A model generated the notes under the pieces. The model ran no database searches and was not told the DNA's origin. It saw only the letters and a program-made list of their open reading frames with translations. The translations under genes were made by a program, and so were the position numbers. 64,000 bases of DNA from Flavobacterium sp. Leaf82. Lineage in GTDB: Bacteria > Bacteroidota > Bacteroidia > Flavobacteriales > Flavobacteriaceae. The number at the start of each line of letters is the position of its first letter. The stretch's first letter is position 1. Location: NCBI RefSeq assembly GCF_001422725.1, contig NZ_LMMA01000012.1, positions 62,001 through 126,000 on the forward strand, read 5' to 3'. Positions 53,660 through 64,000 of this stretch are shown here, piece after piece.

Positions 53660-55018
53660 ATGCAACTGTACAACACTTTAAGCGCAGAAGAAAGAGCCAT
53701 CATGATCGATGATGCCGGTAAACAACGACTAACGTTGTCTTTCTATGCGTATGCCAAAATTCAAGATCCCAAAAAATTTCGCGATGATTTATTTGTAGCC
53801 TGGAATACCCTCGATGCTTTAGGCCGAATTTACGTTGCTACTGAAGGAATAAATGCTCAAATGAGTATTCCTGAAGAAAATTTGGAAACTTTTAGAGCAA
53901 CTCTGGAAGTATATGATTTCATGAAAGGCATTCGTTTGAATGAAGCGGTTGAACATGATGATCATTCATTTTTAAAATTAACCATTAAAGTTCGTGATAA
54001 AATCGTTGCTGACGGTTTAAACGACGAAACTTTTGATGTAACTAATATTGGCGTTCACTTGAAAGCCAAAGAATTCAATGAAATTTTAGACGATCCAAAC
54101 ACGATTGTAGTAGATTTTAGAAATCACTACGAAAGTGAAGTAGGACATTTTAAAGGCGCAATTACTCCAGATGTTGAAACTTTTAGAGAGAGTTTGCCAA
54201 TAATCAACGATCAGTTACAAAATCATAAAGAAGATAAAAACCTTGTAATGTATTGTACAGGTGGAATTCGTTGCGAAAAAGCAAGTGCTTATTTTAAACA
54301 TCAGGGTTTTAAAAATGTTTTTCAATTAGAAGGAGGGATCATTAATTACGCCAAACAAATTGAAGCAGAAGGTCTGGAAAGCAAATTCATTGGTAAAAAC
54401 TTTGTATTTGATAATCGTCTTGGCGAAAGAATTACCGAAGATATAATCTCACAATGTCACCAATGCGGAAAACCTTGCGACAATCACACCAATTGCGAAA
54501 ATGACGGATGCCATTTATTATTCATTCAATGTGATGAATGCAAAGCTGCAATGGAAAATTGCTGTTCTACAGAATGTCTTGAAGTTATCCATATGCCTTT
54601 GGTTGATCAGGTAAGATTGAGAACTGGAAAACAAGTTGGAAACAAGGTTTTTAGAAAAGGAAAGTCTGATAGTTTAAAATTCAAACATTCCGGAGAACTA
54701 TCAAATGCTGCTTTAGGCACAGCTGAAAAACCAGTTGATATTCGCCAGAAAATAAAAGTAAAAAAAGTACTTATTGGTAAAGCGGAGCATTATTATGTAA
54801 AAGCACAAGTTGGACTTTTTACTGTTGAAAATCAGGAATTGAATGCTGGTGATAAAATCTTAATTTCCGGACCAACTACAGGTAATCAGGAATTGGTTTT
54901 AGAAAAAATGATCGTCAACGAAGCAGAAGCCATTACTGCTAAAATTGGAGATAGAGTTACTTTTGAAGTACCATTCCGTATTCGTTTGTCAGATAAAATA
55001 TATAAAATTTTAGAATAA
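53660..55018 (+). CDS. trhO: tRNA uridine(34) hydroxylase TrhO with a TrhP-like C-terminal domain
   Basis: A 452-residue rhodanese-type enzyme that makes 5-hydroxyuridine at tRNA wobble position 34 with O2. An N-terminal domain (1-110, LGRIYVATEGINAQMSIPEE) precedes a rhodanese domain (about 125-225) with the catalytic Cys in VMYCTGGIRCEKASAYF near residue 195. A Cys-rich zinc-like part (CHQCGKPCDNHTNCENDGCH, 20 residues near 268, and CDECKAAMENCC) follows. The proteobacterial TrhO ends near 350. Here 85 more residues (368-452) match the end of TrhP next door, 45 of 85 identical by hand count without gaps. Confidence 0.93.
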   Translation: MQLYNTLSAEERAIMIDDAGKQRLTLSFYAYAKIQDPKKFRDDLFVAWNTLDALGRIYVATEGINAQMSIPEENLETFRATLEVYDFMKGIRLNEAVEHDDHSFLKLTIKVRDKIVADGLNDETFDVTNIGVHLKAKEFNEILDDPNTIVVDFRNHYESEVGHFKGAITPDVETFRESLPIINDQLQNHKEDKNLVMYCTGGIRCEKASAYFKHQGFKNVFQLEGGIINYAKQIEAEGLESKFIGKNFVFDNRLGERITEDIISQCHQCGKPCDNHTNCENDGCHLLFIQCDECKAAMENCCSTECLEVIHMPLVDQVRLRTGKQVGNKVFRKGKSDSLKFKHSGELSNAALGTAEKPVDIRQKIKVKKVLIGKAEHYYVKAQVGLFTVENQELNAGDKILISGPTTGNQELVLEKMIVNEAEAITAKIGDRVTFEVPFRIRLSDKIYKILE

Positions 55019-55107: not shown

Positions 55108-56349
55108 ATGACATTAAATAATAAAATTGAACTTATGGCTCCCGCCGGGAGTTTTGAGTCACTTCAGGCTGCGCTCGATAATGGCGCAGATTCTATCTAT
55201 TTTGGCGTAGAACAACTTAATATGCGTGCGCGTTCAACGGTGAATTTTACTATGGATGACTTGCAGGAAATTGCCAATCGTTGCGAAGCTAAAAACGTAC
55301 GAAGCTACCTGACTTTAAATACGATCATTTACGATCACGATTTGTCTGTTGTAAAGACATTGCTGAACAAAGCAAAAGAAACTAACATTACTGCCGTAAT
55401 TGCCTCAGATCAGGCCGTAATTGCAATGGCAAGAACAATTGGTATAGAAATACATATTTCTACGCAATTGAATGTAACGAATATTGAAACCATAAAGTTC
55501 TACAGCCTGTTTGCTGACACAATGGTTTTAAGTAGAGAATTAAGTTTACGTCAGGTAAAAAGTATTACAGATCAAATTGAGAAAGAGCAGATAAAAGGAC
55601 CGAACGGAAATTTAGTAGAAATAGAAATCTTCGGACATGGTGCTTTGTGTATGGCAGTTTCAGGAAAGTGTTATTTGAGTTTACATTCGCATAATTCCTC
55701 TGCAAATCGTGGTGCGTGCAAGCAAAACTGCCGTAAAAAATATACTGTTATCGATCAGGAAACCGGTTTCGAGATCGAACTGGATAACGAATATATGATG
55801 TCGCCAAAAGATTTATGCACACTGGATTTCTTAGATCAGGTTATAGATTCCGGAATTCAGGTACTCAAAATTGAAGGTCGCGGTCGTGCGCCGGAGTATG
55901 TAGCAACGGTTATCAAAACCTATCGCGAAGCAATTGATTCCTATTATGACAAAACATTCTCGAAAGAAAAAGTTTCTGTTTGGATGGAAGCTTTAAATAC
56001 GGTTTACAATCGTGGTTTTTGGTCTGGATATTATTTAGGACAAGAATTAGGTGAATGGAGCGACATTCCGGGATCTGCAGCAACACAAAAAAAGGTTTAT
56101 GTGGGGAAAGGAACGCATTACTTTCCGAAAGCAGAAGTAGGACAATTTAAAATCGAAGCTTACGATATAAAAATTGGAGATAAAATCTTAGTAACCGGAC
56201 CAAGTACAGGAGCTCAGGAAATGGTAATTGAAGATATGTTAGTCAATGATCTGAAATCTGAAAAAGCAACAAAAGGAGATGATTGTACTTTAAAACTTCC
56301 TTTCCGAATCAGAGTGTCGGACAAATTATATAAAATCGTTGAGGCATAA
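55108..56349 (+). CDS. trhP: U32 family tRNA hydroxylation protein TrhP (YegQ)
   Basis: A 413-residue U32-family protein that, with TrhO as alternative, forms 5-hydroxyuridine at tRNA position 34 using prephenate. Features are ELMAPAGSFESLQAALDNGA (residue 8 on), FGVEQLNMRARS near 32, the Fe-S Cys cluster region FGHGALCMAVSGKCYLSLHS near 175 and SANRGACKQNCRKKY near 200, and YMMSPKDLCTLDFLDQVIDS near 230. The C-terminal domain, 328-412 (Peptidase_U32_C-like), is shared with TrhO. It follows trhO by 89 bases, and its stop overlaps the ferredoxin start. Confidence 0.94.
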   Translation: MTLNNKIELMAPAGSFESLQAALDNGADSIYFGVEQLNMRARSTVNFTMDDLQEIANRCEAKNVRSYLTLNTIIYDHDLSVVKTLLNKAKETNITAVIASDQAVIAMARTIGIEIHISTQLNVTNIETIKFYSLFADTMVLSRELSLRQVKSITDQIEKEQIKGPNGNLVEIEIFGHGALCMAVSGKCYLSLHSHNSSANRGACKQNCRKKYTVIDQETGFEIELDNEYMMSPKDLCTLDFLDQVIDSGIQVLKIEGRGRAPEYVATVIKTYREAIDSYYDKTFSKEKVSVWMEALNTVYNRGFWSGYYLGQELGEWSDIPGSAATQKKVYVGKGTHYFPKAEVGQFKIEAYDIKIGDKILVTGPSTGAQEMVIEDMLVNDLKSEKATKGDDCTLKLPFRIRVSDKLYKIVEA

Positions 56350-56579
56350 TGGTTATTGTAACATTACAAAGAGACAAATGTATTGGATGCAATTATTGCG
56401 TAGAAATGGATGCGTTGCACTTTCAAATGTCTAAGAAAGATGGGAAGTCGGTATTGATTCATTCGAAAGAAGCCAAAGGGTTTTTTACTTTAAAATCGAA
56501 TAATCACACTCTTGCTGAAGGTTTTGAACTGGCTGCGAAAGCCTGTCCGGTAAAAATTATAACGGTTAAGGAGACTTAG
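56349..56579 (+). CDS. Small ferredoxin coupled to trhP
   Basis: A 76-residue protein whose start overlaps the trhP stop by one base (ATAATG). It has the first Cys group CIGCNYCVEMD near residue 11-21 (CxxCxxC) and a later Cys in KACPVKIITV near 65, so it resembles a single [4Fe-4S] ferredoxin (four Cys: C-x2-C-x2-C...C-P). It is a natural electron donor for the U32 Fe-S enzyme TrhP, though ho5U formation by TrhP has been tied to prephenate, so the electron role here is inference. A terminator follows at 56584-56626. Confidence 0.88.
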   Translation: MVIVTLQRDKCIGCNYCVEMDALHFQMSKKDGKSVLIHSKEAKGFFTLKSNNHTLAEGFELAAKACPVKIITVKET

Positions 56580-56583
56580 GATT

Positions 56584-56626
56584 AAAACAAACCCTATTTT
56601 GTAATATGCAAAATAGGGTTTGTTTT
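56584..56626. terminator. Terminator after the ferredoxin gene
   Basis: AAAACAAACCCTATTTTG and CAAAATAGGGTTTGTTTT form a perfect long stem around TAATATG. Confidence 0.88.
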
Positions 56627-56646: not shown

Positions 56647-57186
56647 TTAAATGCCTATTTTGGCATCGATATTATGCTTTTCGACATATGCCTTTGCAGC
56701 ATTCATTAATTTTGTAAACTTAGCTTCTATATCGTTTTGAGTTGAGGCATCAAAATCTGCTATTACTTTTTCTATTTGTTCTGGTAAAGCTTTTTCATCC
56801 TTCATTTTGGCAATTGTCAAATAGCCTTCTTTTTCTTTAGCAATTGCATAAGAGAATAAATCTTTTGATGCCTGAAGAAGTTCTCGATTGTCATCATCTT
56901 CCTTTATATCTTTGATGTTTTTCAACTGAGTTTCTAAATTAGCAATATCAAATTTAAAATAATCATAATAGGAAGATGAAATCATCTTTTTTTGGGCTTC
57001 ATCATAAATCTGAGGTTCAGATGCCAGTTTAAAATTAATATCCTTACTGCCAAAACGGGATAATAAATTCGAATTTAGCGCGGCTATTTCAAAAGTTTTT
57101 TCTGGGGAAAGGTTTGTACAAGAGGTGAGAACTAAACTTGCAGCGATTAATACTAATATGATGGAATTATTTAATGTCTTTTTCAT
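56647..57186 (-). CDS. Lipoprotein of unknown function beside the ankyrin genes
   Basis: A 179-residue protein with a lipoprotein signal (SIILVLIAASLVLTSC, Cys23). The mature part is helical and Lys/Glu-rich (NLETQLKNIKDIKEDDDNRE, AIAKEKEGYLTIAKMKDEKA). I recognise no family. It lies 16 bases after the SHOCT-ankyrin gene on the same strand and is the last gene of the ankyrin operon. The ankyrin proteins lack signal peptides, so direct contact is not obvious. Confidence 0.7.
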   Translation of the reverse strand: MKKTLNNSIILVLIAASLVLTSCTNLSPEKTFEIAALNSNLLSRFGSKDINFKLASEPQIYDEAQKKMISSSYYDYFKFDIANLETQLKNIKDIKEDDDNRELLQASKDLFSYAIAKEKEGYLTIAKMKDEKALPEQIEKVIADFDASTQNDIEAKFTKLMNAAKAYVEKHNIDAKIGI

Positions 57187-57202: not shown

Positions 57203-58546
57203 TTATCCTTTTAAAATTTTATTTTTCTCAGTGTCAAATTCTTCAGAAGTTAAAATTCCGGCATCCAAAAGTTCTTTTAAATCCAATAATGCCTTTTTCT
57301 TTCCTTCCATAGAATTTCCTGAATCTGCTTTTTGTGGCTCTTCCTTCTGAATTGGTGTTATTACAGTTCCAGATGGCGCATACTTCAAAATCAATTCTGT
57401 AATTTCATTAAAGCCTTTTACATTCGAATAATCAATTGCTTTTTGCTCTTTTACATTTACAATGGATGCGTCTGCTTTGTTATCGAGTAAATACTTGACA
57501 ACATCTTTTTTTCCGTTTGCAGCGCTGTAATGCAAAGGTGTATTCCCGGATTCGTCCTGAATGTTGATATCTGCCCCAGCTTCGATTAGTAATTTTACCA
57601 TACTCAAATTGCCTTTTTTGGTAGCAATATGCAAAAGACTTTCGCCACCATACGTATAAGAACTGTTGAGCGTAAAACTAGATTCGTTAGAAATGTTAGT
57701 AGCACTTATAATCCAATCCAGATAATCATTCATAGAAGAAGTATCGCTGGCTAAAGGTTTGCTATAGTTAACGTCAACTCCATTTTCTAGAAATAAAGAG
57801 ACGATTTCCTTTTGATTATTCGCGCAAGCGTACCAAATAGGAGAGAAGCCGTTATTGTTTGATGTGAATACATCAGCTCCTCTTTCTACTAGAAGCTTAG
57901 CAAGCATTCTGTTGGTTTCATAGCACGCAATCAATAGCGCATTTTCTCCGGAATGATTGACATGATTTATAGCAGCGCCATTGTCTAATAGTAAAGTTAC
58001 AACCGGGATCGATTTGGTGTAACAAGCATGAAGAAGTGGTGTGTTTCCTTGTTTATCTGTGACATTAATATCGGCTCCTTTGTCTAAAAGCAACTGAATA
58101 ATTTCACGATTTAATTTTGTTGAAGCTAGTAAAAGCGGAGTTTCTCCGTTGTTATTGAGTAAATTAACATCAATTCCTGCTTCAAGCAACTTTGTTGCAA
58201 TTTCTGTCTGAGCAGTTTGAACTACTAAATGTAAAAGACTGTTTCCCGATTTATCATTTTTGGTAATTTCAGCGCCATTTTCTAAAAGATATAAAGAGGT
58301 TTGCTTTTGCTTTTGAAGACAAGCAAAAAACAAAGGCGTTTCTCCCTGATGATCTTCATAATTAATATCAGCACCATCTTCGCATAAAATTTTTACAATA
58401 TCAAGATAACCTCTGTGAGCTGCATAGTGAAGGGCAGTTCTTCCTTTTTCATCTGTATATTTTACATCCACTTCCTTGTTTTGAAGCAGTAATTCGGCTA
58501 TTTTTCTGTTGCCGTTTTCACAGGCAATTATAAATGACATTGACAT
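57203..58546 (-). CDS. Ankyrin-repeat protein with C-terminal SHOCT domain
   Basis: A 447-residue protein made of about ten ankyrin repeats (residues 4-400), visible as GRTALHYAAHRGYLDIVKIL, GETPLFFACLQKQ, GNSLLHLVVQ, GETPLLLASTK, GNTPLLHACYTKS and SGNTPLHYSAANGKKDVVKY. A Ser/Asn-rich loop at about 265-300 interrupts the row. The last 35 residues (KALLDLKELLDAGILTSEEF, then DTEKNKILKG) form a SHOCT domain, a short C-terminal oligomerisation module. No signal peptide, so it is probably cytoplasmic and binds other proteins. It is 26 bases after the second ankyrin gene. Confidence 0.88.
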   Translation of the reverse strand: MSMSFIIACENGNRKIAELLLQNKEVDVKYTDEKGRTALHYAAHRGYLDIVKILCEDGADINYEDHQGETPLFFACLQKQKQTSLYLLENGAEITKNDKSGNSLLHLVVQTAQTEIATKLLEAGIDVNLLNNNGETPLLLASTKLNREIIQLLLDKGADINVTDKQGNTPLLHACYTKSIPVVTLLLDNGAAINHVNHSGENALLIACYETNRMLAKLLVERGADVFTSNNNGFSPIWYACANNQKEIVSLFLENGVDVNYSKPLASDTSSMNDYLDWIISATNISNESSFTLNSSYTYGGESLLHIATKKGNLSMVKLLIEAGADINIQDESGNTPLHYSAANGKKDVVKYLLDNKADASIVNVKEQKAIDYSNVKGFNEITELILKYAPSGTVITPIQKEEPQKADSGNSMEGKKKALLDLKELLDAGILTSEEFDTEKNKILKG

Positions 58547-58572: not shown

Positions 58573-59751
58573 TTATGATTTCATTAAAAGTTCGACCGTT
58601 TTAATTTTTAGATTATCTCCGGATGCAAGCATTAAAGCGGTTTCATCTTTATCATTGGTAATCGAAATATCTACTCCCTGATCTAAGAGCAGTTTTACTT
58701 TTCGATAGGTTTCTTTTGCCATTTCTGCATCATAATTGACATTATACGCGCAAACTTTATGCAAAATTGTGTTTCCCTGATTGTCTTGTTCATTTACATC
58801 TAAAGAAACATTTTCTAAAACCGATTTTAAAATGTCTGATTTCTTTTCCACAATAAAATCAATCCCCGATTTTGGCTGACCATAATATTGAGCGCAGAAG
58901 TTTACATCGCCACCATCTGATAACAATCTTTCTAAAAAGGTAATATCGCTTGGCGAGCCCGAAACAGAACTGATGAAATGAGTCAATAAAGTGCGTCCGT
59001 CTTTGTTTACAATATTAAAATCAGGTGAAGAAACTGTTGCTAACGCATCGTACATATCAAAAGAAAACTGTTCAGCAACAGCATAATAAAAAGCAGTATT
59101 GTTGAGGTTGTCTGTTTCGTTGGCATCCGCTCCATTTTCGAGCAGGAAGGGAACAAAATCTTTCTTGCTTCTTTTAATAGCACAGATTAACGGAGTTGTA
59201 CCAACGATGTTTTTTTCGTTAATGTCGATACCATTATCCAGAAGAATAGCTATGTATTCTTTTACTTTATCTGTTTCAAGACCATAAGTGTTCAAAATGG
59301 TATAGATGAAATTTTCTCCTGCATTATTTTTATATTGAACATTCGCCCCAAAATCATCAATCAGAGTTTTAATGATTTTTGGAGATGCATTTTTTTCAAG
59401 AAAATAACCAAGTAACGTTTTATCGCTTATTTCATCATTAATATTTTCCGTTTTTGACATCAATTCTTTGAAAAATGCAATCGATTCATCGTCATCTTTT
59501 AATCCGGTTAAAGAATTAAAAATCGATTTGTCAAAACTATCCAATTCATAGATATCGGTTTCAATAAAACCTGCTTTTATTAATTTTTCAATGAAATCAA
59601 TTTCTTTGGCTGTAATAATTTTGGCTGTGATTTGAGAAAAATTGTTTTTAAGATATTGATCGTTAAAAGTTTCGCCATTATTTAGGCATTCTCTGGCCTC
59701 GTCAAATTTTCCCTGGAAAAGGAAATTTTCAATTTGGTTTTGTGTTTGCAT
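58573..59751 (-). CDS. Ankyrin-repeat protein, first gene of the ankyrin operon
   Basis: A 392-residue protein. An N-terminal helical part (1-100, NFLFQGKFDEARECLNNGE) is followed by about seven more or less regular ankyrin repeats (ASPKIIKTLIDDFGANVQYK, GTTPLICAIKRSKKDFVPFL, NTAFYYAVAEQF, NTILHKVCAYN, DETALMLASGD). It has no enzymatic motif and no signal peptide. It belongs to the same transcript as the next ankyrin gene and the lipoprotein gene. Its upstream side faces the broken trhP/ferredoxin copy at 59864-60143. Confidence 0.85.
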   Translation of the reverse strand: MQTQNQIENFLFQGKFDEARECLNNGETFNDQYLKNNFSQITAKIITAKEIDFIEKLIKAGFIETDIYELDSFDKSIFNSLTGLKDDDESIAFFKELMSKTENINDEISDKTLLGYFLEKNASPKIIKTLIDDFGANVQYKNNAGENFIYTILNTYGLETDKVKEYIAILLDNGIDINEKNIVGTTPLICAIKRSKKDFVPFLLENGADANETDNLNNTAFYYAVAEQFSFDMYDALATVSSPDFNIVNKDGRTLLTHFISSVSGSPSDITFLERLLSDGGDVNFCAQYYGQPKSGIDFIVEKKSDILKSVLENVSLDVNEQDNQGNTILHKVCAYNVNYDAEMAKETYRKVKLLLDQGVDISITNDKDETALMLASGDNLKIKTVELLMKS

Positions 59752-59863
59752 TTGAAGTTGTATTTTAAATGAAAATTATGCTTTAATGAAGCCAGATTAA
59801 TAATAATTGACTTCACAAACTATGTTGTAAGATAAAACATAAAATTGAGAAATATATTTCAAG

Positions 59864-60143
59864 ATGAAAATTAAAAAAGATTTATATACATTAGATTTTT
59901 TAGATCAGGTAATAGATTCCGGAGTTCAGGTTTTAAAGATTGAAGGCCACGGTTGTGCCCAACAACGGTTGTCAAAACGTATCTCGAAGTTTCAAATGTC
60001 AAAAAAGGGAAGTCAATTTTACTTCATTAAAAGAGGCAAAAGTTTTTTTTACTTTAAAATCTCCTAATCATATTATTGTAGAAATTTTTGAATTGGAAGC
60101 GAAGGCTTCTCCAGTCAAGATTATTACGATTAAAGATACTTAG
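59864..60143 (+). pseudogene. Decayed chimeric copy of trhP and the ferredoxin gene
   Basis: The first part reads KDLYTLDFLDQVIDSGVQVL and on, as in TrhP KDLCTLDFLDQVIDSGIQVL (23 of 26 residues alike over this stretch plus KIEGHG/KIEGRG). Then comes a shift of reading frame and a stretch matching the ferredoxin end (26 of 36: EAKVFFTLKSPNH, SPVKIITIKDT). The ferredoxin CxxCxxC group is missing and the last Cys has become Ser. Compared with the intact genes, about 490 bases (55931-56420) are deleted at the junction CGAAG/TTTCAAATG. It cannot encode either protein. Confidence 0.88.
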
Positions 60144-60160
60144 AAAAAAGTCTTCTTAAA

Positions 60161-60205
60161 ATACAAGAAAGCCCATTCTAATTTATAGAATGGGTTTTCT
60201 TGTAT
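60161..60205. terminator. Terminator after the broken copy
   Basis: ATACAAGAAAGCCCATTCTA and TAGAATGGGTTTTCTTGTAT form a long stem. It takes the place of the terminator after the intact ferredoxin gene but has a different sequence. It also serves the convergent PorP/SprF gene. Confidence 0.85.
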
Positions 60206-60237
60206 TTAAATATGTTTTAGGATTAATAAAAAGAATT

Positions 60238-61209
60238 TTAATAATGTACAGGACTTTGCGTACAGGAACAATTACTAATTCCTCGAAGAAAATCAAGTCC
60301 AATAGTAACAACATGAGTTCCCGAATTGTAAGCTCCAAGCTGGTTTAATGATGCCTGATAAGAATATCCAAAATAAAAATTATTCTTTTTAAATCCTGCC
60401 ATTGGTCCCATCATTAACGGTTCTAAAAACTGATCGTTTAAGAAACGATAAGAAACTCCAATCCAAAAGTAATCTTCGTAACGATTGTATTGTCTGTACT
60501 TAAAATTCAAATCTGTACTGGAACGTTGGTCACTGGCAAACATTTGGAAATAAACAGAAGGTTCAAATTCAATTCTGTCAGTTGCTCCTTTAAAAGTATA
60601 TCCAGTATACAATTGATAATTACGAAGTAAACTTGGCTCTATACCAGTAAATTGATCTATTTTTTTCTCTAGAATATTGCTAATATTTAAACTCAAAAAG
60701 TATCCTTTATTTCTATATAGTGCTCCTATATCAAAGTTGCTATTGGCTAAATATCTGTCATTTGTAATGCCAGGATCTGGTGCAGGATTTTCATAAGTAG
60801 GTTTGAATTCGTTGATGTCAATTTTAAAATTATTAAAGTTATAGGAGATTCCTAATGATAAATATTGTTTAGAATAATAATCTAAAATCAAGTGATGTGC
60901 AAAAGATATTTTACCTCCCATTTGTTTTGTGTAACCATTGCTGTCGTTATAAAGTGAGATTCCTACTCCGGAGCGGTCCAAAATCCTGAAATCAGCATAT
61001 AAAGATTGATTATCAGGTGCATCTTTAATACCAACCCACTGTGTTAAGCCATTGGCACGTATTCTTAAATTATCACCAATACCTGCATATGTTGGAGATA
61101 TAACAAATGGATTGTCTGCCAGATATTGTGTAAAAACCGGTAAATTTAACTCTTGGCTATAACCTGAGGTTACAGCCATAAGTAGTATTGTTAGGATAAA
61201 TTTTTTCAT
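60238..61209 (-). CDS. PorP/SprF family type IX secretion membrane protein
   Basis: A 323-residue outer-membrane beta-barrel from the ATG at 61209 (MKKFILTILLMAVTSGYSQE is the signal peptide). Family traits are LPVFTQYLADNPFVISPTYAG (in parts LPVFTQYLADNPF and VISPTYAG) near residue 22, RLRANGLTQWVGIKDAP-like RIRANGLTQWVG near 48, and many aromatic strand ends. SprF is needed to export SprB-type adhesins through the type IX system. The adhesin-like gene with type B sorting signal ends 41 bases upstream on the same strand, so cargo and partner sit together. Confidence 0.92.
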   Translation of the reverse strand: MKKFILTILLMAVTSGYSQELNLPVFTQYLADNPFVISPTYAGIGDNLRIRANGLTQWVGIKDAPDNQSLYADFRILDRSGVGISLYNDSNGYTKQMGGKISFAHHLILDYYSKQYLSLGISYNFNNFKIDINEFKPTYENPAPDPGITNDRYLANSNFDIGALYRNKGYFLSLNISNILEKKIDQFTGIEPSLLRNYQLYTGYTFKGATDRIEFEPSVYFQMFASDQRSSTDLNFKYRQYNRYEDYFWIGVSYRFLNDQFLEPLMMGPMAGFKKNNFYFGYSYQASLNQLGAYNSGTHVVTIGLDFLRGISNCSCTQSPVHY

Positions 61210-61250
61210 TGTAATGTAAGTTTTAGACAACGTAATTGTTTTGTTATTTG

Positions 61251-64000
61251 TTATCTGTAAAGGGTGAAATGTCCAACAAACTCTCTATTGTCTTTATTAT
61301 CGTTTAGTTTAAATACATACCAGTAATCACCAGAAGACAATTCTGTTCCATTGTATTTTCCATCCCATTTTTGACCATACTTATAATTACCGATTATACG
61401 ACCATATCGATCAAAAATTGTAAAGGTTAAGTTTTTGTATTGTATGGTGCATCCAGGTCCCCATTCATCATTTATACCGTCTCCGTTTGGAGTGAAGTGA
61501 TTTGGAATACAGACATCTATATATTCAAAATATTTTGAAGAAGTAGTTGTACATCCATTTTTATCTGTTACAGTAACTGTATATATTCCTGATTTGTATA
61601 TGATGAGTTTATTTGTGGTGCTGAAGGATTCATCATTAAATGAATATCTGTATTGCCCATTACCACCAGTTGCAGTTGCTACAATTTCATTCAATTCACC
61701 ATCTACCAGAGTTAGTGCCAATGGTTCGATGTAATCAATAGTAAATATCTTTGTAGACTGAATACAGCCATTTGTATGTCTTGCAGAGATTATGTGGTCT
61801 CCAGAGGCAATATTAGTAAAGATATTTTCAACTTGGTAAGATCCGCCATCAAGAGCATAATCTATATCAGTAAGATTGGTATTACTTGAATCGATGGTAA
61901 CAGTTACAAAATTTGACGTTACATTATTTTTGCAGTTTGAATCAATTTCTACAGTTGGATTTAATACAACTGCCTCAGGAAGAATGACATCAATTTTTGT
62001 CGTACAGCCTGATATATCCTGAATGTAAACAATATGTTTACCTGCGGAGATGTTTTCAAAATCAAATACATTTTGTTCTTGTTGTCCTTGTAAAAAGGCC
62101 CCAGATGCTTTGTCTAAACTATATCTATATGGTTTGCTGCCTCCAGAAATTTCTATACTAAACATGCCATCCTGATCACCTGAACAATATTCGGGCGTAA
62201 TAGGACCAAGGATTTTAGCATCTAAAATATTTGGTTCTGTAATAGTTACAACAATTATTGTGTTACACTTGTTGTTGTCTGTTACAGTAAAAGTATGAGT
62301 GCCTGCACTAAGCCCAGTTTGAGACGGAGTGATATTATAATTACCAGAACCTCCACTTGGTTTGATTACAACGGAACCATTGCTTTCACCTTTACATTTT
62401 ACGTTATTTTGGCTTTGAATTACAGCACTTAATATTTGAGGTTCAGTTATTATTACACTGATTTTCGTTTCGCAATTGTTGCTATCGGTGATAGTAAAAG
62501 TATGGTTGCCGGCATTCAATCCGTTTTGTGCTGGAGTAATTATATATGGTGCAGTTCCTCCACTTGGTTTGATTACAACGGAACCATTGCTTTCACCTTT
62601 ACATTTTACGTTATTTTGACTTTGAATTACAGCACTTAATATTTGAGGTTCAGTTATTATTGCATTGATTTTCGTTTGGCAATTGTTGCTATCGGTGATA
62701 GTAAAAGTATGATTGCCAGCATTCAATCCAGTTTGTGCAGGTGTAATATTATACGGTGCAGTTCCTCCGTTTGGAGTAATTACTACAGATCCGTTATTTT
62801 GTCCTTTACAAGTTACTTCAATTTGACTTTTGATTACAGCACTAAGTTCTTCCGGTTCTGTAATTGTAGCGTCTACTGATGTTTGGCAATTGTTGCTATC
62901 GGTAATAGTAAAAGTATAGTTGCCAGCATTCAATCCAGTTTGTGCCGGCGTAATGATATATGGTGCAGTTCCTCCATTCGGATTAATTACAACAGATCCG
63001 TTACTTTCACCTTTACAAGTTACTTCAATTTGGCTTTCGATTACAGCACTTAGTTCTTCCGGTTCTGTAATTGTAGAGTCAATAGTTGTTTCACAATTGT
63101 TGCTATCTGTGATAGTGAAAGTGTAATTGCCAGCAATTAATTCCGTTTGTGCCGGTGTAATGATATATGGTGCAGTTCCTCCATTTGGAGTAATTTTAAC
63201 AGAACCGTTACTTTCACCTTTACAAGTTACTTCAATTTGACTTTTGATTACAGCACTAAGTTCTTCAGGTTCCGTAATTGTAGCGTCTACTGATGTTTGG
63301 CAATTGTTATTATCGGTGATAGTAAAAGTATAGTTGCCTGCATTCAATCCAGTTTGTGCCGGCGTAATGATATATGGTGCAGTTCCTCCGTTTGGAGTAA
63401 TTACAACAGATCCGTTATTTTTACCTTTACAAGTTACTTCAATTTGACTTTCGATTACGGCACTTAGTTCTTCAGGTTCCGTAATTGTAGCGTATACTGA
63501 TGTTTGGCAATTGTTGCTATCGGTGATAGTAAAAGTATGGTTACCTGCATTCAATCCGGTTTGTGCCGGTGTAATGATATATGGTGCAGTTCCTCCGTTT
63601 GGAATAATTACAACAGAACCGTTATTTTCACCTTTACAAGTTACTTCAATTTGACTTTCAATTACAGCACTTAATAATTCAGGTTCTGTAATTGTAGCAT
63701 TTATTGTTGTTTGACAATTGTTACTATCGGTAATAGTAAAAGTATGGTTGCCAGCATTCAATCCAGTTTGTGCCGGCGTAATGATATATGGTGCAGTTCC
63801 TCCATTCGGAGTAATTACAATAGATCCGTTATTTTTACCTTTACAAGTTACTTCAATTTGGCTTTCGATTACAGCACTTAGTTCTTCGGGTTCCGTAATT
63901 GTAGCGTTTACTGATGTTTCACAATTGTTACTATCGATGATAGTAAAAGTATAATTCCCAACAGTCAGCCCAGTTTGTGGCGGAGTAATTATATATGGCG
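61251..64000 (-). CDS. Adhesin with SprB-like repeats and type B type IX sorting domain (5' end outside the window)
   Basis: The frame is open to the right edge, so at least 915 codons are visible and the N-terminus is missing. The upstream part contains tandem 69-residue units (LNAGNHTFTITDSNNCQT, TITEPEELSAVIESQIEV, TCKGENNGSVVI, NGGTAPYIITPAQTG), typical of SprB repeats with a Cys in each half. The C-terminus (about 90 residues, CIPNHFTPNGDGINDEWGPG, TIFDRYGRII, GQKWDGKYNGTELSSGDYWY, GHFTLYR) is the gliding-associated CHU_C/type B domain for secretion by type IX. It is probably a surface adhesin moved in gliding. The SprF-like partner follows 41 bases later. Confidence 0.93.
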   Translation of the reverse strand, partial: PYIITPPQTGLTVGNYTFTIIDSNNCETSVNATITEPEELSAVIESQIEVTCKGKNNGSIVITPNGGTAPYIITPAQTGLNAGNHTFTITDSNNCQTTINATITEPELLSAVIESQIEVTCKGENNGSVVIIPNGGTAPYIITPAQTGLNAGNHTFTITDSNNCQTSVYATITEPEELSAVIESQIEVTCKGKNNGSVVITPNGGTAPYIITPAQTGLNAGNYTFTITDNNNCQTSVDATITEPEELSAVIKSQIEVTCKGESNGSVKITPNGGTAPYIITPAQTELIAGNYTFTITDSNNCETTIDSTITEPEELSAVIESQIEVTCKGESNGSVVINPNGGTAPYIITPAQTGLNAGNYTFTITDSNNCQTSVDATITEPEELSAVIKSQIEVTCKGQNNGSVVITPNGGTAPYNITPAQTGLNAGNHTFTITDSNNCQTKINAIITEPQILSAVIQSQNNVKCKGESNGSVVIKPSGGTAPYIITPAQNGLNAGNHTFTITDSNNCETKISVIITEPQILSAVIQSQNNVKCKGESNGSVVIKPSGGSGNYNITPSQTGLSAGTHTFTVTDNNKCNTIIVVTITEPNILDAKILGPITPEYCSGDQDGMFSIEISGGSKPYRYSLDKASGAFLQGQQEQNVFDFENISAGKHIVYIQDISGCTTKIDVILPEAVVLNPTVEIDSNCKNNVTSNFVTVTIDSSNTNLTDIDYALDGGSYQVENIFTNIASGDHIISARHTNGCIQSTKIFTIDYIEPLALTLVDGELNEIVATATGGNGQYRYSFNDESFSTTNKLIIYKSGIYTVTVTDKNGCTTTSSKYFEYIDVCIPNHFTPNGDGINDEWGPGCTIQYKNLTFTIFDRYGRIIGNYKYGQKWDGKYNGTELSSGDYWYVFKLNDNKDNREFVGHFTLYR
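62290..64000. repeat. Tandem 207-base repeats inside the adhesin gene
   Basis: The marker GCAGTTCC falls at 62551, 62758, 62965, 63172, 63379, 63586 and 63793, exactly 207 bases apart. A diverged unit is at 62344 and another begins towards 64000. The uniform spacing shows no insertion or deletion between units, while sequence differs by scattered substitutions. Confidence 0.92.

Follow-up and report, generated by a model that had tools for sequence, protein, structure and literature searches.

A dead fragment of trhP and of the small ferredoxin gene beside it (fd) lies at 59876-60143 in a 64,000-nucleotide stretch of the Flavobacterium sp. Leaf82 genome (the window), across a three-gene ankyrin block from the intact copies of both genes. 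We consider it likely that a variable gene slot here had a second haplotype, whose trhP-fd end lost its 5' part and decayed to this remnant, and that the remnant marks a hybrid joint between two haplotypes. A sequence-only reading of the window had instead proposed a duplication of the trhP-fd end, with the ankyrin block now separating original from remnant. The part of that proposal in which a rearrangement placed the block between the two held up, and the remnant proved not to be closest to its own intact gene. The slots of two relatives, [Flexibacter] sp. ATCC 35103 (G244) and F. aquidurense RC62 (G075), are built as in Leaf82, with the ankyrin block and a PorP/adhesin locus together and a remnant at the seam; the three remnants are referred to as R000 (Leaf82), R244 and R075.

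The slot lies between conserved anchors, trhO-trhP-fd on the left and a PSP1-domain gene (PSP1) with gldH on the right. The left flank holds trhO, encoding the oxygen-dependent tRNA U34 hydroxylase (53660-55018, forward strand; NCBIfam NF001133, over the cut-off). The left anchor comprises intact trhP of the U32 family (55108-56349, forward; Pfam PF01136), whose product has TrhP (NF011996) as its nearest NCBIfam model at a score below the cut-off (200.7 of 534 bits), and intact fd (56349-56579, forward; Pfam Fer4_15 / Fer4_13), the start of which overlaps the trhP stop. Just 3' of fd is a terminator-type inverted repeat with perfect 18-nt arms (56584-56626). The ankyrin block is on the reverse strand: gene 3 (56647-57186), found at the same position in many relatives, encodes a 179-aa product that has a lipoprotein-like start by eye and no family match in Pfam or NCBIfam; gene 2 (57203-58546) encodes a 447-aa ankyrin-repeat protein with a SHOCT end (Pfam Ank_2, SHOCT); and gene 1 (58573-59751) encodes a 392-aa ankyrin-repeat protein (Pfam Ank_4 / Ank_2). 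The conserved upstream, promoter-side region of this operon occupies 59752-59879 on the same strand. To the right of the remnant, the second PorP/SprF-type gene, PorP2 (60238-61230, reverse; Pfam PF11751, NCBIfam TIGR03519), belongs to the right-hand haplotype together with a large SprB-repeat adhesin gene with a CHU_C type IX sorting domain (61251-64000, reverse; Pfam SprB, CHU_C), which contains ambiguous bases and extends past the window to about coordinate 68982. The right anchor starts at coordinate 69210, also beyond the window, with PSP1 and gldH (both by Pfam), and its third gene resembles PBP1A by eye. Ambiguous bases in the adhesin repeats (L133:4700-5400) split the reading frame, and the contigs of G174, strain LC2016-12 (G153) and strain 245 (G389) end within the same gene; both probably reflect a limit of assembly rather than a biological break.

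Repeat searches of the window and searches of the whole genome bore out that a stretch of trhP is joined to the 3' portion of fd. Within the window, 59875-59958 matched trhP 55806-55889 at 83% over 84 nt, 59990-60006 matched 56421-56437 at 88% over 17 nt, and 60030-60143 matched fd 56466-56579 at 76% over 114 nt. With 59800-60210 as the query, the Leaf82 genome (37 contigs, 5.67 Mb in all) gave matches at E≤0.001 to fd next door (E 2.3e-22), to trhP next door (E 1.8e-21) and to the reverse strand of the remnant's own terminator, and to no further place. The similarity of the remnant to the neighbouring trhP-fd is far above chance. Another U32 gene elsewhere in the genome had been named as a possible better match; as a source of the remnant it was rejected, there being no such match in the Leaf82 genome at that threshold. 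The fragment had been drawn from 59864, and its left limit needs correction: trhP-like sequence begins at 59875/59876, and what precedes it, with the ATG at 59864, is part of the conserved region upstream of the ankyrin genes.

The trhP remnant proper (59880-59989, forward; about codons 235-275, counterpart 55811-55930) contains a small internal deletion of 10-13 bases that R000, R244 and R075 have in common. It is followed directly by the fd 3' remnant (59990-60143, forward; counterpart 56421-56579), with 490 bases (55931-56420) absent between the two pieces. The 490-base deletion is identical in G244 and Leaf82 and is not found in G075, where the remnant runs from about trhP codon 230 through the whole of fd. 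Because G075 keeps this middle part and has the 10-13 base deletion in common with the others, losing the 490 bases was a secondary event, and decay had probably set in by the time the three lineages parted. The frame shift and the loss of a cluster cysteine that had been read from the sequence were both confirmed: the Leaf82 remnant is broken into two overlapping 67-codon frames, the N-terminal cysteines of fd (CIGCNYC) fall within the deleted part, and the last cysteine is replaced by serine (KASPVK). The G075 frame is broken at several places. Differences between R000 and R244 number 6/90, 7/88 and 6/88 at the three codon positions, nearly equal proportions, and the two sequences therefore drift freely. 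Broken frames and the loss of codon-position bias are what a pseudogene should show, though the frame is open in G244.

That open frame raises the question of whether the fragment is functional, as a small gene or as a regulator. The G244 chimera has 92 codons (L083:6432-6710), with an ATG supplied by ankyrin-side DNA, which speaks for a function; against this, the frame is broken in both Leaf82 and G075, the R000-R244 substitutions are spread about equally over the three codon positions, and the remnant matches no Rfam family at gathering score. We regard a present function as highly improbable, and the G244 frame is perhaps an accidental new open frame created by the seam. A structured RNA in the remnant was likewise rejected for lack of an Rfam match at gathering score; all 16 sub-threshold matches lie on the terminator hairpin. 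This hairpin, an inverted repeat with 25-nt arms that are 92% complementary (60156-60210), also stands downstream of porP, and a stretch weakly similar to it lies between fd and porP in G174. Of the whole remnant, only this terminator may still be of use, for porP.

Leaf82, G244 and G075 all closely resemble the ankyrin-only relative G337 along the upstream region of the ankyrin operon, as far as ...AAAAAAG at 59879, where this similarity stops and trhP-type sequence begins. When the joint in the three remnant genomes was aligned with G337 and with trhP of G174 and G153, the two trhP genes also showed AAAG at the corresponding position, so that the seam (59876-59879) is an overlap of four bases, or five in some trhP alleles, common to the ankyrin-side and the trhP-side sequence. 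This is the form of an illegitimate joint, in which unrelated sequences meet at a short microhomology, with AAAG on both sides. On its own the microhomology is weak evidence because it consists of four bases in AT-rich DNA. A query spanning the joint (59752-59990) found a full-length match in 3 of 398 genomes of the genus, namely Leaf82, G244 and G075. Left of the seam is the ordinary trhP-fd-ankyrin arrangement, and right of it is the ordinary trhP-fd-PorP2-adhesin arrangement without the first part of trhP.

Both parental arrangements exist undisturbed: trhP-fd-ankyrin in G337 and others, and trhP-fd-PorP2-adhesin in G174, G153, G389 and F. araucananum, with Root186 visible as far as PorP only. 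G337 and G339 are collinear with Leaf82 to 59879 and 59881, respectively, and again only from 69210. G342 follows Leaf82 to 56583 and resumes at 69210, with 1.7 kb between fd and the position corresponding to 69210. In G174, G153 and G389, trhP-fd-PorP2-adhesin is on one contig end and adhesin-PSP1 on another, and none of the three has a relative of the ankyrin genes at E≤1e-60. The ankyrin block and the PorP-adhesin locus thus occupy one variable slot; some relatives have nothing in it, and others have the ankyrin block, PorP with the SprB-repeat adhesin, or different genes. Among 80 named loci, 24 had the ankyrin block with PSP1 seen, and 2 more had it with no PSP1 in the sequence covered; 22 had other content, 20 were empty (fd to PSP1 under 300 bp), 5 held PorP2, 2 held ankyrin and PorP2 together (G075 and G244), and 5 were undeterminable. 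The arrangement that had been suggested as a check, trhP-fd followed directly by PorP, was thereby found in 5 of the 80.

A PorP relative was found in each of the 20 genomes searched, in single copy in 13. Leaf82, G244, G075, G174, G153 and G389 have one beside trhP-fd or the remnant. Among Leaf82, G244 and G075, PorP2 diverges much faster than the other PorP that these three carry. Long secreted-looking genes fill the slots of L285, L286, L302 and L310; the L302/L310 pair (about 1040 and 508 aa) has starts that we take to resemble those of a SusC/SusD pair.

The simplest rival to a hybrid joint is that the 3' end of trhP-fd was copied locally, in tandem or by a template switch, that the ankyrin block came to lie between the copies, and that the far copy decayed. 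The collinearity of the remnant pieces with the neighbouring genes is what such a copy would give. On the other hand, the right-hand order of remnant, terminator, PorP2, adhesin and PSP1 is the undisturbed order of other genomes. A local duplicate would be expected to resemble most the intact gene beside it in the same genome. In whole-remnant comparisons the same-genome intact gene was absent from the six nearest sequences in all three genomes. A 41-row tree placed the remnants as a clade (99) outside the intact genes of Leaf82, G244, G075 and G337 (UFBoot 99) and beside G174 (88). When 15 more genes were added (56 rows), the remnants fell outside Leaf82, G244, G075, G337, F. piscis, F. frigidimaris and F. 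bizetiae (98). The sister position of a G174-like donor, supported at 88 with 41 rows, was gone with 56, and F. araucananum, predicted as the closest donor from PorP2 (88%), was not supported by the trhP-fd tree; duplication gains from the fact that the larger tree links the remnant with no particular donor. AU tests did not reject trees with the remnants inside Leaf82+G244+G075 (p 0.118 with 41 rows, 0.186 with 56), as duplication would have it, or inside Leaf82+G244+G075+G337 (p 0.232 and 0.0625), and so statistically still allow a duplication.

Individual sites speak against a copy. Nine sites of fd between 56498 and 56529 are derived in all three intact copies, three of them also in G337, and at these the genus-majority base is kept by R000 at 8/9, R244 at 8/9 and R075 at 6/9. 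R075 has other bases at two of the nine, and at 56524 all remnants carry the base of the intact Leaf82, G244 and G075 copies (the own-clade base). Over the 23 listed sites, R000 has 9 majority bases, 4 own-clade bases, 1 other and 9 gaps; R244 has 10, 4, 0 and 9; and R075 has 11, 6, 3 and 3, the 6 own-clade bases of R075 being a point in favour of duplication. Distances by codon position provide a further measure, since in a copy that was dead from birth third positions are expected to differ about twice as much as the others. R075 differs from the intact G075 gene by 0.641 at third, 0.156 at first and 0.102 at second positions, an excess over an immediately decaying copy of 0.384 (95% CI 0.228-0.57). 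The corresponding values, 0.185 for Leaf82 and 0.153 for G244, have intervals that include zero. The G075 excess indicates that the remnant probably derives from an already diverged, once working trhP-fd. R075 is most similar in mid-trhP to the intact G244 gene (84.4%), perhaps due to gene conversion. Trees, fd 3' sites and third-position excess thus favour an allele, the AU tests admit either history, and from these comparisons the remnant was probably a diverged allele before it decayed; we judge a plain duplication unlikely.

Under the hybrid-joint reading, the ankyrin haplotype (trhP-fd-ankyrin) would have been joined to the PorP-adhesin haplotype (trhP-fd-PorP2-adhesin) in an ancestor of Leaf82, G244 and G075. 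One end would have been made by homologous recombination in a shared anchor, at a crossover not located, and the other by illegitimate joining at the AAAG that we observe, which would have fused the outer upstream end of the ankyrin operon to the interior of the other haplotype's trhP. Homology-facilitated illegitimate recombination (HFIR) or single-crossover integration of a circularised fragment would give the same product. The truncated trhP-fd would not have worked and would have decayed without selection, putatively through the 10-13 base deletion in all three lineages, then the 490-base deletion in Leaf82 and G244, and then single-base losses in Leaf82. Shared anchors are present on both sides of the slot, and exchange between them is observed in other strains (see below).

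Which haplotype was the newcomer is a closer question, and we lean slightly toward entry of the ankyrin-bearing haplotype, displacing the trhP-fd of a PorP-adhesin resident. An ankyrin newcomer fits a similar structure in F. oncorhynchi (see below) and the low dS of the block: between Leaf82 and G244, dS is 0.11-0.13 for the ankyrin block and 0.43 for trhO, 0.64 for trhP, 0.54 for fd, 0.57 for PSP1 and 0.33 for gldH. Elsewhere in these genomes dS is 0.11 for rpoB, 0.21 for gyrB and 0.23 for the other PorP, and the low value of the block may or may not mean recent sharing because rpoB is as low. The opposite direction, with the ankyrin haplotype already resident and PorP2-adhesin arriving by way of the PSP1 anchor with a trhP-fd end attached, would leave the same joint and takes the smaller share of the likelihood that we give it; by itself it is possible and rather doubtful. 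It draws support from the likeness of the Leaf82 intact trhP-fd, ankyrin block and right anchor to G337, which is the sister in the rpoB tree (100), from the remnant branching outside that G337-containing group, and from the patchy distribution of PorP2. It sits less well with F. oncorhynchi, where the module side looks more foreign than the far side, with the block dS below that of its flanks (rpoB being equally low), or with the start of the right anchor, which is unlike that of G174; no donor-like start was seen there. In the rpoB tree the Leaf82/G244/G075 clade has support of 64; gyrB does not recover this clade, and G075 pairs with G337 in the tree of the ankyrin gene.

Exchange within the slot is most easily seen between strains LC2016-12 and 245. 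These are 90.6% identical in gyrB, yet the first 1000 bases of trhP match at 970/1000, followed by 223/241 at the trhP end and 198/231 in fd (131/154 and 67/77), fd not being shared. From just after fd, PorP2, the non-repeat parts of the adhesin and the start of PSP1 are mostly 92-100% identical; trhO is at 84-92% and a deeper stretch on the right at 82-91%. Identity in this recent exchange (L149:15589-18839, L236:279-3395) thus drops in trhO and inside PSP1, with a gap over fd. As judged from these identities, slot content evidently moves between species along with pieces of the anchors.

A second piece of trhP-fd was found in 6 of 117 loci scanned, some genomes being represented twice: two loci each of G075 and G244, and L270 and L281. 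Scoring for shorter, hidden remnants in 65 of 66 loci (L285 was too long) placed only L270 and L281 far above shuffled sequence, with L276 slightly above (29 vs 26, single-base shuffles). The first, in F. oncorhynchi CCUG 59446 (L270:11601-16053), has a four-gene module, one gene of which is DUF6175, and then a truncated trhP' and a whole fd' before PSP1. Its direct repeats are 453 nt long and 98.7% identical, the first 340 bases being the same. The nearest relative in the trhP-fd tree, F. plurextorum, has an empty slot; of the 6 sites at which the two F. oncorhynchi copies differ, the far one agrees with it at 4 and the left one at the other 2, and the intergenic sequence after the far copy matches it as well. 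In the second, LC2016-23 (L281:14816-14919), a 105-nt fd 3' remnant lies between the ankyrin upstream region and PSP1 and is followed by what appears to be its own terminator. Both are independent twins of the structure in the window, with truncation at trhP base 699 in the window, at base 1021 in F. oncorhynchi and inside fd in LC2016-23. The F. oncorhynchi slot holds no ankyrin block; a fragment without the block in relatives had been set down as refuting the duplication proposal, and this twin is one of the points that count against it.

These cases suggest a broader view, which we offer tentatively and think rather unlikely to hold in full, that the 3' end of trhP-fd is a standing docking arm for integrase-free cassettes in Flavobacterium. 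A cassette would arrive with a foreign trhP-fd end and recombine, so that the left side regains a complete trhP-fd and a truncated copy stays behind on the right. As long as the copies remained alike, as with the 340 identical bases of F. oncorhynchi, RecA could excise the cassette, with a clean, empty slot as the result. Once the far copy had decayed, as it has in the window, the cassette would be locked in.

Some integrative elements carry part of their target gene at their end, and a target-gene fragment at the far side of foreign DNA is also what we see. Unlike those elements, the slot yielded no integrase among its genes searched by family (Pfam and NCBIfam, a set without the slot genes of L285, L286, L302 and L310), and the truncation points vary over the three cases, neither of which is expected of a site-specific integrative element. 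A parallel comes from the type VI secretion (T6SS) clusters of Vibrio cholerae, where arrays of orphan immunity genes are described with displacement of modules, proposed to occur by homology-facilitated illegitimate recombination beside a conserved upstream anchor (PMC5361080). There, as in the window, the new module shifts the old unit's 3' end to its far side, where it is left behind, and alleles of the same genome do not cluster; the leftover immunity genes of the Vibrio clusters may stay useful (PMC5361080). The truncated trhP-fd decays instead, and the Flavobacterium slot differs in its cargo as well, which is either the ankyrin operon or the locus of a type IX adhesin. HFIR of linear DNA has one homologous and one illegitimate end, with a microhomology of mostly 3-10 bp (PMC3240628), and the 4-5 bp at the window's joint are in keeping with this. 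It usually deletes host DNA of similar size (PMC3240628), whereas the visible loss here is confined to the first part of one trhP. Single-crossover integration of a circularised fragment is the alternative given in the same source (PMC3240628). Its outcome would be a complete gene at one end and a truncated one at the other, which is what F. oncorhynchi has; against it, no circle was seen, and since differences between the F. oncorhynchi copies are limited to the last 113 bases, a circle model must assume later conversion. The literature searched, with most subscription journals outside its scope, yielded nothing on trhP-fd as an exchange slot and nothing related on HFIR in Flavobacterium; the kind of scar is a known one, and its place at a trhP-fd slot had not been met in that literature.

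From such scars one can read how accessory operons, in this case the ankyrin genes and the type IX adhesin locus, swap at one slot without an evident integrase. With three independent cases, one fresh and two decayed, the process can be tested in culturable Flavobacterium. They also advise caution, in that a gene fragment beside an island is not to be taken as a simple duplication.

A separate observation concerns the left anchor itself. The last 85 residues of the trhO and trhP products match each other at about 50% identity in relatives (window 54761-55015 and 56089-56343), and the neighbouring genes for tRNA U34 hydroxylases, trhO and trhP, seem to have a C-terminal domain in common.
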